Assembly: GCF_002196855.1 (NCBI RefSeq)
Contig: NZ_NIPW01000004.1
Coordinates: 186,001 to 250,000 of the forward strand
Direction: 5' to 3'
Length of the DNA: 64,000 bases
DNA from: Haematobacter genomosp. 1
GTDB lineage: Bacteria; Pseudomonadota; Alphaproteobacteria; Rhodobacterales; Rhodobacteraceae
Made by a program: the position numbers and the translations under genes. The notes under the pieces are model-generated. The model made no database searches and was not told the origin of the DNA. It was given only the letters and a program-made list of their open reading frames with translations. Of the stretch, positions 7,375 to 18,351 are shown piece after piece; positions within the stretch are counted from its first letter, which is position 1; every line of letters starts with the position of its first letter.

Positions 7375-8319
7375 TCAGCGGCGGACGCGCGCCTCGATCA
7401 CCTTCCAGATCGCCTCCGCCGTATTCGTGCCGTCGAATCGCTCAAGTTCCTGGATCCCTGTCGGCGAGGTCAGATTGATTTCCGTGAGCCAGTCGCCGAT
7501 GACATCTATTCCCACGAAGATCTGCCCCTTCTCATGCAGGGTCGGCCCGATGGCCGCGCAAATCTCCCTGTCCCGCTCCGTCAGGGCGACTTTCTCCGGC
7601 CTGCCGCCGACATGCATGTTGGAACGTGTTTCCCCCGCCTGCGGCACCCGGTTGATCGCGCCGACCGGCTCTCCGTCCACAAGAATGATCCTCTTGTCAC
7701 CCTTCGCCACGGCGGGGAGGAATTTTTGGACGATCAGCGGCTCCCGCGAGAATCCCGTGAACAGCTCATAGAGCGAGGAGAGGTTCCGGTCATTCTCGTC
7801 CAGCCGGAACACCCCCGCGCCGCCATTGCCGTAGAGCGGCTTCAGGATGACATCCCCATGGTCTGCCTTGAAGGCCCGGATCGTGTCCAGATCGCGGGCA
7901 ATGGCGGTCGGCGGCGTCAGGTCGGGAAACTGGAGCACCAGCAGCTTTTCGGGCGCATTCCGCACCCAGAAGGGATCGTTGACCACCAGCGTTCCGGGAT
8001 GGATGAGGTCCAGCAGATGGGTCGTGGTGATATAGGCCATGTCGAAGGGCGGATCCTGCCGGAGCCAGACCACGTCGAAGTCGGAAAGCCGTACATCCTC
8101 CAGATCGCCAAGCGTGAAGTGATCACCCTTCACGCGGCGAACCGTAAGGGGATACCCCTTCGCCCTGACCTCTCCCTCCCGGAAGTAGAGTTTGTCCGGG
8201 GTATAATAGAACAGCCGGTGACCGCGCTTCTGCGCCTCCTCCGCAATGCGGAAGGTGCTGTCCGCATCGATGTTGACCGGACCGATCGGGTCCATCTGGA
8301 TGGCGACGTTCAGGGTCAT
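7375..8319 (-). CDS. gshB: Glutathione synthetase
   Basis: ATP-dependent ligation of gamma-glutamylcysteine and glycine to glutathione in the cytoplasm. At 314 residues it is the size of E. coli GshB. It starts [12 protein letters not shown], the typical N-terminus, and carries the ATP-grasp features [15 protein letters not shown] around residue 150 and the C-terminal [14 protein letters not shown] metal/ATP site. It is the third gene of rsmI-yraN-gshB on the minus strand, 66 bp after yraN. Start ATG 8319 is preceded by GGGAGA. Confidence 0.96.
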
Positions 8320-15249: not shown

Positions 15250-15932
15250 CGGATAAGGGCGAGCGCCCGGCGCCAGCCGCCGGGGCAAACCACGAAGGAC
15301 AGTCCGAATCCCGTGGCAAAACCCGACAGGTCCGCCACCCATTCGTTGGAGCCGCCGAACAGCGCCCCAAAGAGGAGCTGGATACCCAGCAGCGTCCCGA
15401 TCAACCCGAATGCCCGCAGGCGCCCCGACCCCTGCCCCGCTGCCCGCACCCAGAGCAGGAAGGTGAATGCTCCGATCAGCCCGTAAACCGCCGGATATCC
15501 GCCCACAAGCCAGGCCGGATCGTCAAGCAGCAGCCCGAAGACCAGCGCCCCCATGATGGCGGAGCCGAAGAACACAGCCAGCACCGCGACTGTGGAGAAT
15601 ACCTCCCCCACCATCTTGCCAAGCGCGAGGATGAAGACGAATACGAACATCATATGCGTGAACGACGCGTGGAAGAACGGATAGGTCACGAACCGGATCA
15701 TCTGCTCGGCCGGATAGAAGTGGTTTGCCACCATCCAGTCGAAGATCTGGCCCGAGAACCCGAACCGCTGGATCGCTTCCACCCGCCAGGTAAAACCCAG
15801 CCCGCCGCCGACGATCCCCCGATCCGCGAGGCTGAGCAGCAGTTCTATGGCGGCGACGGGGCCTGCAAGCACCCAGACGACGAATGGCAGGGGATTGAGC
15901 GGGGAGCGGTCTGGATCGTGCATGTCCGGCAT
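15240..15932 (-). CDS. Rhomboid-family membrane protein, catalytic residues lost
   Basis: A 230-residue protein with a six-helix rhomboid layout. The loop-helix-2 segment HASFTHMMFV (residues 88-97) keeps both His but has Val97 where the oxyanion Asn is expected. The GxSG motif position reads GGYPAVYG (144-151), placing Tyr146 at the nucleophile Ser and Pro147 at Gly. The helix-6 His position is Asp201 (ADLSGF). The fold is recognisable but all three catalytic positions are replaced, so it should be a pseudoprotease. ATG 15932 and ATG 15923 are alternative starts, neither with a good ribosome site. It is convergent with murJ and divergent from trpS. Confidence 0.85.
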   Translation of the reverse strand: MPDMHDPDRSPLNPLPFVVWVLAGPVAAIELLLSLADRGIVGGGLGFTWRVEAIQRFGFSGQIFDWMVANHFYPAEQMIRFVTYPFFHASFTHMMFVFVFILALGKMVGEVFSTVAVLAVFFGSAIMGALVFGLLLDDPAWLVGGYPAVYGLIGAFTFLLWVRAAGQGSGRLRAFGLIGTLLGIQLLFGALFGGSNEWVADLSGFATGFGLSFVVCPGGWRRALALIRQR

Positions 15933-15998
15933 TCTGTTGACGCGATGATGGGCCAGCGATAAGCCGACCGGACCATATAATCCAGACGGAGAAAAATC

Positions 15999-17039
15999 AT
16001 GACCGAGCCGGTCCAAACGCCTCGTGTCTTCCCGCAACGGGTGTTCTCGGGGATCCAACCCTCGGGCAACCTGCAACTGGGCAACTATCTCGGCGCGTTG
16101 AAACGCTTCGCCGCCGCTCAGGACAACGGGATCGAGACGATCTATTGCATCGTGGACATGCATGCGATCACCGTCTGGCAGGATCCGGCCGACCTCACCC
16201 GCGCGACGCGGGAACTGGCGGCGGGCTTCATCGCCTCCGGCGTGGACCCGGAGCGTTCCATCCTGTTCAACCAGAGCCAGGTTGTCGGTCATGCTCAGCT
16301 CGCCTGGATCTTCGATTGCGTCGCACGGCTCGGCTGGATGAACCGGATGACCCAGTTCAAGGACAAGGCAGGCAAGAATGCCGAAGCCGTGTCGCTCGGG
16401 CTGTTCGCCTATCCCGCGCTGATGGCCGCCGACATCCTGCTCTACCACGCCACGCATGTTCCCGTCGGCGAGGATCAGAAGCAGCATGTGGAACTGACCC
16501 GGGACATCGCGGCCAAGTTCAACCATGACTACGGCGTCGATTTCTTCCCGATGCCGGAACCGGTGATCGAGGGCGCCGCGACGCGGGTGATGAGCCTGCG
16601 TGACGGGTCGAAGAAGATGTCGAAATCCGACCCGTCCGACATGAGCCGCATCAACCTGACGGACGATGCCGACACCATCGCCAGCAAGATCCGCAAGGCC
16701 CGCACGGATGCCGAGCCGCTGCCGGAAACGCTGGAGGGGCTGAAGGACCGGCCGGAGGCGCGCAACCTCGTCAACATCTACGCGGCCCTCGCCGACACCA
16801 GCCCGGAGGCCGTGGTGGCGGAGTTCTCGGGTCAGGGCTTCGGCGCGTTCAAGCCGGCGCTCGCGGATCTGGCCGTCGCGCAACTCACCCCGATCTCGGG
16901 CGAAATGCGGCGTCTCACCTCCGACCCGGCGGAGATCGACCGGATCCTCGCCCGCGGGGCGGAACGCGCCAACGCCATCGCCGCGCCCGTCATCGACCAA
17001 ACCTATGATATCGTCGGCATGATCCGGGGCGTGCGATGA
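15999..17039 (+). CDS. trpS: Tryptophanyl-tRNA synthetase
   Basis: Charges tRNA-Trp. The 346 residues are of bacterial TrpRS type, with the HIGH-equivalent in [12 protein letters not shown] at about residues 23-34 and a KMSKS loop in [10 protein letters not shown] near residue 205. The middle has the family [16 protein letters not shown] segment. ATG 15999 follows GGAG. The stop overlaps the ATG of ectC by four bases, an unusual partner for trpS. Confidence 0.97.
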
Positions 17040-17422
17040 TCGTCAGGTCTCTGGACGACGTGATCTCCGGCCCGAACCATGCAACTGGTCCGGGCTGGGA
17101 AAGCCGGCGCATCCTGCTGAAACCGGACGGCATGGGCTTCTCCCTCCACGACACGCTGGTGAAGGAGGGGGAGGAGTTGCATCTGGAATACAAGCACCAC
17201 CTGGAAGCCAACTATTGCATCGCCGGGGAGGGCGAGGTGACGGAGGTGGCAACCGGGCGGACCTGGCCTATACGGCCCGGCACGCTCTATGCCCTCGACC
17301 GGAATGACGCGCATGTGCTGCGGGCGACAAAGGGCGATCTGCGGCTGGTCTGCGTGTTCAACCCTCCCCTCTCCGGCAATGAGCGCCACCGCGAGGACGG
17401 AAGCTACGCGCCGGAGGAATAG
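17036..17422 (+). CDS. ectC: L-ectoine synthase
   Basis: Cyclises N-gamma-acetyl-2,4-diaminobutyrate to ectoine, a compatible solute. The 128-residue cupin matches EctC in length. The iron ligands reported for Paenibacillus lautus EctC (Glu57, Tyr85, His93) fall at exactly those positions here (HHLEANY, GTLYALD, DAHVLR). It starts with ATG inside the trpS stop, implying translational coupling. No ectA, ectB, ectD, ask or ectR is present in the window, so the substrate must come from genes elsewhere, from uptake, or the protein is a solitary EctC with another role. Confidence 0.92.
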
Positions 17423-18000
17423 CCCGCTTGGGTCGTGTCGCAACCCGGTTCCGGCGGGATGTGCAGGGGAATGCTGTCTCCTCCGTGATCAACCGCCTCC
17501 TCGGCGCGCGCTGATGGCCTGAAGCTGGCCTCAGGATGGAGATCTACATCGCTGCTGTAGGGATGCGCTTTCTAACCGCCTTCGCCTGGTGACAGGACGG
17601 TCACCGTCTCCGCGGTCCTCGATTGCGGGATGCGTGTGAGCATTTTGATCGCTCGGGAATCGAAGGGAATCTCCGCTCCCGGCATTTGGTCAGGGGCTGC
17701 CTCCCCTCCGCCACGGTCAAACGCGAGTCCTGGCACTGACTGTCGCATGCTGCGCGGCCATCCCAACGCCGCCGCCATAGGATGCATCCCTGATCTGGAT
17801 GCCGTCTAGCCCGACATTGCTCCGCGTAGGCCCACGATGGAAGGCCCTTCCACTTCCATTCCCCGACAGGACCAGGATCGGTCGCACCGGTTGCAAACCC
17901 TTCGGTAGATATGAGGCCGCCTCTTCCCCTTCCTGCTGGCGACAGGACGCGCGCCGCGCTAGGAGGCTGGCGGCATCCTGCCTTACAGAAGGAGACATCC
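17423..18000. other. 578-bp region without a convincing gene
   Basis: Between ectC and the RidA gene. Short frames occur on both strands, but none has a ribosome site plus a recognisable protein, and codon usage is unlike the neighbours. It contains a small inverted repeat GGTGAC / GTCACC at about 17588-17605 and, near its end, the AAGGAG ribosome site of the RidA gene. It could be a remnant of decayed sequence; nothing more can be said. Confidence 0.5.
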
Positions 18001-18351
18001 ATGTCCGATATCACCCGTCTCGAAACCGGCGCCCGCATGAGCGAGGCGGTCGTCTACAACGGCCTGATCTTCCTTGCCGGGCAGATCGGCGCGCCGGGAA
18101 CCAGCGTCCGTGAACAGACGGAGGCCGCTCTCGCCGAGGTTGACCGCCTTCTGGCCGCCGCGGGTTCGGACAAGACCCGCATCCTCTCCGCGCAGATCTG
18201 GCTCGCGGACATCGCCGATTTCGCCGAGATGAACGCAGTTTGGGATGCCTGGGTCGCGCCCGGCCATACGCCTGCTCGTGCGACGGGCGAGTCGAAACTG
18301 GCCGCGCCGGATTACAAGGTCGAGGTCATCGTGGTTGCCGCCGCGAAGTAA
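18001..18351 (+). CDS. RidA (YjgF/UK114) family protein
   Basis: A 116-residue trimer-forming family member; RidA proteins hydrolyse reactive enamine/imine intermediates released by PLP enzymes. The YNGLIFLAGQIG start of the beta-core and the C-terminal PARATGESKL segment, with the Arg that in active members binds the substrate carboxylate, are present. ATG 18001 has AAGGAG 6 bp upstream. It looks like the divergent Rid subgroup rather than archetypal RidA, so activity is inferred. It stands alone, convergent with prfB. Confidence 0.9.
   Translation: MSDITRLETGARMSEAVVYNGLIFLAGQIGAPGTSVREQTEAALAEVDRLLAAAGSDKTRILSAQIWLADIADFAEMNAVWDAWVAPGHTPARATGESKLAAPDYKVEVIVVAAAK

Follow-up and report, generated by a model that had tools for sequence, protein, structure and literature searches.

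Ectoine utilization clusters combine an Ehu importer and an EnuR/MocR regulator with EutABCDE. On the biosynthetic side, passages on ectoine synthase (EctC) place its iron on Glu57, Tyr84/85 and His92/93 and describe a mechanism in which an amine, assisted by the iron, attacks the amide carbonyl and water is lost (PMC6344544). EctC proteins encoded without ectA and ectB, usually called orphans, made up 145 of 582 EctC sequences in one published survey, in parts of which their function is called unresolved; the orphan ectC of Pseudomonas syringae B728a is discussed there as well (PMC5924519). The solitary ectC of Haematobacter that we describe here shares with these orphans the lack of ectAB but differs in lying behind trpS and, from many others of its kind, in being canonical at residues 21 and 38.

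The window, by which we mean the whole 64,000-nucleotide stretch of DNA analyzed here, carries on its forward strand a trpS gene for a 346-residue tryptophanyl-tRNA synthetase (15999..17039, +; TIGR00233 323.9 bits against a cut-off of 176.75, PF00579 238.9 bits), and directly behind it a solitary ectC encoding a 128-residue iron cupin of the ectoine synthase family (17036..17422, +), which is recognized by PF06339, NF009806 and four solved chains. In agreement with the preliminary description, which had placed the start of ectC inside the trpS stop, the ATG at 17036-17038 overlaps the TGA at 17037-17039 in an ATGA (17036..17039, +), and the identical overlap occurs in H. massiliensis and H. 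missouriensis. Such overlaps are ordinary in the window, where they join 3 of 25 same-strand neighbor pairs called by a home-made gene caller that misses genes in GC-rich stretches, and we therefore reject any special status for this one. Upstream of trpS, translations inspected by eye reveal a rhomboid-like stretch on the opposite strand and a murJ-like ORF. A match to the type-P5 twister ribozyme (Rfam Twister-P5) at 15258-15314 (+) reached 23.6 bits against a gathering threshold of 37.6 and was dismissed on that ground as probably due to chance. Downstream, 578 nt (17423..18000) separate ectC from the next forward gene, which encodes a RidA-family (L-PSP) protein (18001..18351, +; PF01042 86.1 bits; start picked by eye within an ORF at 17911). 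By eye, this gap is weakly conserved among the three Haematobacter species, and a simple scan of it found no promoter-like or terminator-like site; the RidA-family gene is probably a separate unit.

From this arrangement we infer that ectC is co-transcribed with trpS and hence made constitutively. Because the gene sits behind a housekeeping gene, its expression is likely constitutive rather than salt-driven, and to this extent the earlier proposal that EctC levels follow TrpRS and not salt finds support; the part of it that reads meaning into trpS as the partner does not (see below). A salt-induced promoter inside trpS had been named as one observation that would speak against such control, and a scan of 15800-18100 for sigma-70-type promoters, the one promoter type it covers, returned no promoter-like site.

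Over residues 1-127 the Haematobacter protein exceeds the family cut-offs by a wide measure (PF06339 179.3 bits, cut-off 27; NF009806 178.2, cut-off 128), and the four solved chains that it matches are all L-ectoine synthases (5onn/5ono/5onm and 5bxx), with an E-value of 1.7e-38 against the P. lautus structure. The iron ligands Glu57, Tyr85 and His93, whose conservation had been noted from the sequence, are present at those exact positions, and the other active-site residues we tested are canonical too. Thus, the P. lautus substrate and product residues Trp21, Ser23, Arg25, Thr40, Tyr52, Glu57 and Phe106 are retained, P. lautus Asn38 is replaced by a His shared by 36 of the 37 canonical sequences in the comparison, and W21, S23, R25, H38, T40, Y52, H55, E57, Y85, H93, C106, F108, E116 and H118 of the Haematobacter protein each equal the commonest canonical residue. 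Many solitary EctC proteins deviate at positions 21 and 38. At position 21, the 49 solitary rows, which include the duplicates L067 (of L003) and L088 (of L007), comprise 24 with Trp, 14 with Gly, 10 with Phe and one with Leu; the rows with Gly have a Trp a few residues earlier, a shift that has been noted for some orphan EctC proteins (in passages of PMC6344544). Haematobacter EctC retains Trp21. It is 98% identical to its homologues in H. massiliensis (L002) and H. missouriensis (L003), and among the three species the gene has a dN/dS of 0.024-0.027 at a dS of 0.37-0.64 (our own Nei-Gojobori script), below the 0.062-0.075 of trpS in the same species. The gene is thus under strong purifying selection and has been retained. 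Compared with canonical EctC as represented by P. lautus, the Haematobacter protein shares the family, the metal ligands and almost every substrate and product contact, whereas its gene lies in a housekeeping operon, falls into a separate tree group and belongs to a genome in which ectA and ectB stay below cut-off.

That last point rests on profile searches of the whole assembly (4,202,463 bases in 81 contigs, listed completeness 100). EctC gave a single match at E <= 0.001. The best genome-wide scores for EctA (25.7 bits against 120.6), EctB (239.7 against 552.2) and the diaminobutyrate aminotransferase model (264.9 against 401.6) were all below cut-off, so that the absence of ectA and ectB first remarked on for the neighborhood extends to the genome, and no second, complete ectABC was found elsewhere to set beside this well-conserved copy. 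The ectoine hydrolase EutD likewise stayed below cut-off genome-wide (38.2 bits against 613), leaving the EutD catabolic route without a match above threshold. For ectoine uptake, raised earlier alongside the pathway genes, our search covered EhuB, which remained below cut-off across the genome (69.5 bits against 190.9). EctD had no match in the Haematobacter genome; this absence is weak because the EctD model was also silent in every control genome. The EctA search does work, since in a Rhodobacteraceae sample of 394 genomes the same model scores above its cut-off in 103. EctC does so in 127 of the 394, and when the two lists were crossed by hand, 102 genomes had both, one had EctA only and 25, Haematobacter included, had EctC without EctA. 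The Haematobacter gene is therefore an orphan in the usual sense, an EctC-family gene without ectAB, and not part of a bona fide ectABC cluster; we found no evidence for ectoine as its product.

To place the protein among its relatives, we examined two EctC trees, in neither of which P. syringae EctC is a row. In the first, which has 142 rows, few columns for that number and many open forks, the window protein belongs to a 27-row group in which all 27 members are solitary (support 89/85). Most ectAB-linked proteins, 65 of 81, fall together with one solitary row in a 66-row group (99/99), and the remaining 16, of which L196 stands next to five solitary rows, are spread over other groups. In the second tree, the window protein shares a group with the EctC proteins of the importer-amidase-ectC plasmids described below, and again all members are solitary (23 of 23; 91/84). 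Support for both groups is moderate, and solitary here means that BLAST found no EctA or EctB within the stretch examined, which for some loci is a short contig: L230, scored solitary, has an annotated ectB about 6 kb from ectC, and L228, also scored solitary, has an EctA-like acetyltransferase whose 63 bits miss the threshold used. As judged from these sequences, Haematobacter ectC appears to be an intact stand-alone member of the EctC family, and a recent ectABC relic is unlikely because the gene belongs to an all-solitary group. Since that group stands apart from the ectAB-linked EctC proteins of its own family, gain of ectC behind trpS is likelier than survival from a family ectABC.

The preliminary description regarded coupling to a tRNA synthetase gene as an odd context. 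We reject trpS as a meaningful partner, as the pairing was seen only in Haematobacter: among the best 30 of 58 trpS loci, the window's own included, ectC follows trpS in three, all from Haematobacter, and trpS occurs in nine of 183 ectC-bearing stretches (many with only 1.5 kb of flank), all nine being copies of the three Haematobacter genomes. Relatives within the 27-row group occupy unrelated operons, and no single neighbor gene accounts for all of its members. Five solitary ectC genes of Rhodobacteraceae lie in the spc ribosomal operon between rpmD (L30) and rplO (L15), with ectC near position 8001 of each locus (L069, L071, L075, L080 and L086) and both ribosomal proteins confirmed by Pfam; in the second tree all five fall into one nine-row EctC group. 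These five proteins carry Phe or Leu in place of Trp21. Elsewhere in the group, ectC lies behind gatC-gatA (L009), a HerA-like helicase gene (L012), plsY (L079), an amidohydrolase-family gene (L068 and L093), an OCD-family gene (L091), an amidase gene (L007) or a glutamine-synthetase-type gene (L006), and some ectC genes are apparently alone. These placements can be read simply as insertions behind housekeeping genes; trpS fits that pattern, and its link to ectC seems to reflect a chance local insertion.

A recurrent setting emerges among the relatives instead. An amidase-family gene lies directly upstream of ectC in nine of 68 solitary loci, three of the 68 being Haematobacter, and in none of 21 ectAB-linked loci; the nine include the GatA of Amylibacter and five plasmid loci that share one tree group and are thus not independent. 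The other 59 solitary loci lack a directly upstream amidase, and the Haematobacter ectC locus has neither amidase nor importer adjoining, its directly upstream gene being trpS. Searches with five amidase queries, covering about 816 kb (solitary) and 243 kb (ectAB-linked) of flank beyond 2 kb, found no further amidase ORF in the examined stretches save in a duplicate of the Roseobacter locus; because the queries were taken from these same loci, distant amidases elsewhere may be missed. The ectC-linked amidase subfamily is closest to the model NF005460, with a score below its cut-off. An amidase gene also immediately precedes two very divergent EctC genes (L095 and L096), but it is of another subfamily.

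Plasmid-borne EctC proteins of Burkholderia, Caballeronia, Shinella, Rhizobium and Streptomyces are 53-65% identical to the window protein, and of 121 matched plasmid records we examined 15. Five of these have the amidase directly upstream, namely Burkholderia multivorans (L217), Caballeronia (L218), Shinella zoogloeoides (L219) and two Rhizobium plasmids (L221 and L222); the amidase gene ends within about 60 nt of ectC and in L221 overlaps it. Another Shinella (L220) has acnA in the place of the amidase, L227 and L229 are ectABC clusters, and the other seven, the unannotated L223 among them, are of other kinds. Before the amidase, both Rhizobium plasmids carry annotated ehuB, ehuC and ehuD together with an ATP-binding gene, with ehuA annotated in one, and EhuB of the Rhizobium sp. 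WYJ-E13 cluster scores above cut-off (225.8 against 190.9). In the corresponding place B. multivorans and Shinella zoogloeoides have an amino-acid-type ABC protein below curated cut-offs, and Caballeronia has a branched-chain substrate-binding protein. Caballeronia and Rhizobium sp. WYJ-E13 have MocR-type regulators with GntR and aminotransferase domains near ectC, and R. bangladeshense has a protein annotated in similar terms there. The plasmid of Rhizobium sp. WYJ-E13 also has a RidA gene near ectC, perhaps by coincidence. In Roseobacter SK209-2-6 a EutA-like gene (249.6 bits against a cut-off of 318), an amidase gene and ectC are consecutive. These relatives thus share with ectoine utilization clusters the Ehu-type importers, the MocR-type regulators and, once, a EutA-like gene; they differ in that the three annotated amidase plasmid stretches have no annotated EutD or EutE and carry an amidase and EctC instead. 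None of these genes adjoins Haematobacter ectC.

One further relative is a fusion protein. In Acetobacter garciniae (L008:10001-10879), an EctC 61% identical to that of the window is fused in frame to an L-2-amino-thiazoline-4-carboxylate (ATC) hydrolase domain (PF14196), which by its name opens a C=N-containing ring, and the second tree places this fusion next to the amidase-linked plasmids (99/60). The domain is absent from Haematobacter EctC and has no significant BLAST match in the window; among the loci then examined it occurs only in the fusion itself. The titles and abstract openings that we searched contain no mention of an amidase–ectC link.

Other solitary EctC proteins occur in different surroundings. 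Those of Streptomyces and Rhizobium gallicum (L015, L224 and L228) are surrounded by genes for an AMP-ligase, a carrier protein or TrpA/TrpF-like proteins, in clusters of biosynthetic appearance. An EctC-like domain also occurs in phage genomes: in Mycobacterium phage Gaia (L232:2938-3837) and Pseudoalteromonas phage XCL1123 (L233:2935-3865), an annotated 'ectoine synthase/ParB multidomain protein', encoded by one gene or a split pair, comes after an annotated PAPS reductase gene. Some alphaproteobacterial genomes (G507, G773, G698 and G728; loci L207, L208, L209 and L210) have four to six EctC-like matches each, several of which are two or more EctC-like stretches within one open frame.

Our best explanation, offered tentatively and with a little less than an even chance of being right, is that Haematobacter carries an intact, selected, solitary EctC that is co-transcribed with trpS and interconverts an amide and a cyclic amidine in a salvage or ring-opening role. 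The Fe(II) held by Glu57, Tyr85 and His93 would polarize an amide carbonyl or the carbon of a ring C=N, and loss or gain of water would then convert a linear N-acyl (or primary) amide into a cyclic amidine or back. Since EctAB-dependent synthesis of N-gamma-acetyl-diaminobutyrate seems closed to this cell, the substrate would be acquired or arise as a side product, and the opened amide might be handed to an amidase. We favor salvage or ring opening over osmotic ectoine synthesis because in some relatives importer and amidase genes precede ectC, an operon that would fit import of a cyclic amidine, its opening and cleavage of the resulting amide. For Haematobacter itself the catabolic reading stands one step further removed, as it shares the protein but not the arrangement, and its nearest non-Haematobacter relatives by path (L072, L193 and L004) have no amidase neighbor. 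That a clade of orphan EctC proteins including that of Haematobacter works mainly in salvage or catabolism, opening an imported or endogenous cyclic amidine whose amide an amidase then cleaves, we consider unlikely. Published passages bear on the chemistry in both directions. The Halomonas elongata enzyme hydrolyzes homoectoine and DL-DHMICA, and EctC interconverts glutamine and its cyclized form ADPC in vitro with an equilibrium that favors hydrolysis of ADPC to glutamine (PMC5924519), and the ectoine reaction is described as reversible in crude extracts of Halorhodospira halochloris, although purified H. elongata EctC was unable to run it in reverse on ectoine (PMC3187862). Hydrolysis of ectoine by the purified enzyme is called negligible in published passages (PMC3187862, PMC5924519, PMC6344544), and the reaction with ectoine practically irreversible (PMC6344544). 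A catabolic role would therefore need a different cyclic substrate or a strong pull from a partner.

The gene might instead encode an ordinary forward ectoine synthase that draws N-gamma-ADABA from other organisms and provides stress protection without ectAB, as proposed for P. syringae. The active site, equal to canonical EctC at every position tested, suits such a role, and in passages of PMC5924519 P. syringae B728a is reported to make ectoine under salt stress when host leaves are added and its orphan ectC to yield ectoine in an H. elongata ectC mutant. The same source describes import of N-gamma-ADABA by P. syringae with no ectoine seen, however, and a second one calls the enzyme only partially active (PMC3979721). 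In Haematobacter, EhuB is below cut-off genome-wide and the coupling to trpS gives no reason for salt control, and the amidase paired with some close relatives might destroy N-gamma-ADABA rather than supply it; we regard forward synthesis as possible but doubtful. The biosynthetic-looking clusters described above raise a different prospect, that the protein combines the EctC fold with a substrate of quite another kind, and the many solitary EctC proteins that differ at positions 21 and 38 speak in its favor. Haematobacter EctC is canonical at both sites, and the Streptomyces proteins belong to a group that does not include it, so that for this protein the idea is distinctly improbable.

It is also conceivable that solitary ectC genes owe their placement beside translation genes to an enzyme whose substrate is a metabolite connected with aminoacylation or glutamine, as would be the case if EctC cleared ADPC, an activity for which the in vitro interconversion offers a precedent (in the passages of PMC5924519 cited above). 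The 27-row group contains at least three separate translation-linked placements, counted by eye on gene lists with Pfam run on selected genes: trpS in three Haematobacter species, rpmD-ectC-rplO in five loci, and gatC-gatA-ectC, where GatC and the GatA amidase family were identified. Yet the five spc loci belong to one EctC group and need not be independent, and other members follow herA-like, plsY, amidohydrolase, OCD and glutamine-synthetase-type genes, so that the pattern is accounted for equally well by constitutive expression; we hold a link to translation to be quite unlikely. A decaying remnant of a lost ectABC that survived by chance behind trpS, one option suggested in print for orphan EctC (in parts of PMC3979721 and PMC6344544), is extremely improbable. 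We reject decay for this gene given a dN/dS of about 0.025 among the three species, alongside active-site residues that are canonical at the positions tested, and we reject descent from the family's own ectABC because the group in which it falls is all solitary and does not contain the family's ectAB-linked EctC.

The case also illustrates why ectC by itself should not be read as evidence of ectoine production. The interest of Haematobacter ectC lies in the group to which it belongs, one of intact orphan EctC proteins found partly in a recurrent, catabolic-looking setting. The importer-amidase-ectC arrangement, together with the EctC-hydrolase fusion, provides a concrete and testable lead on orphan EctC function, and Haematobacter EctC, a small protein with canonical active-site residues, is suited to testing it. 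If the salvage or ring-opening reading is true, ectoine-like compounds could be used by a second route alongside that of EutD/EutE.
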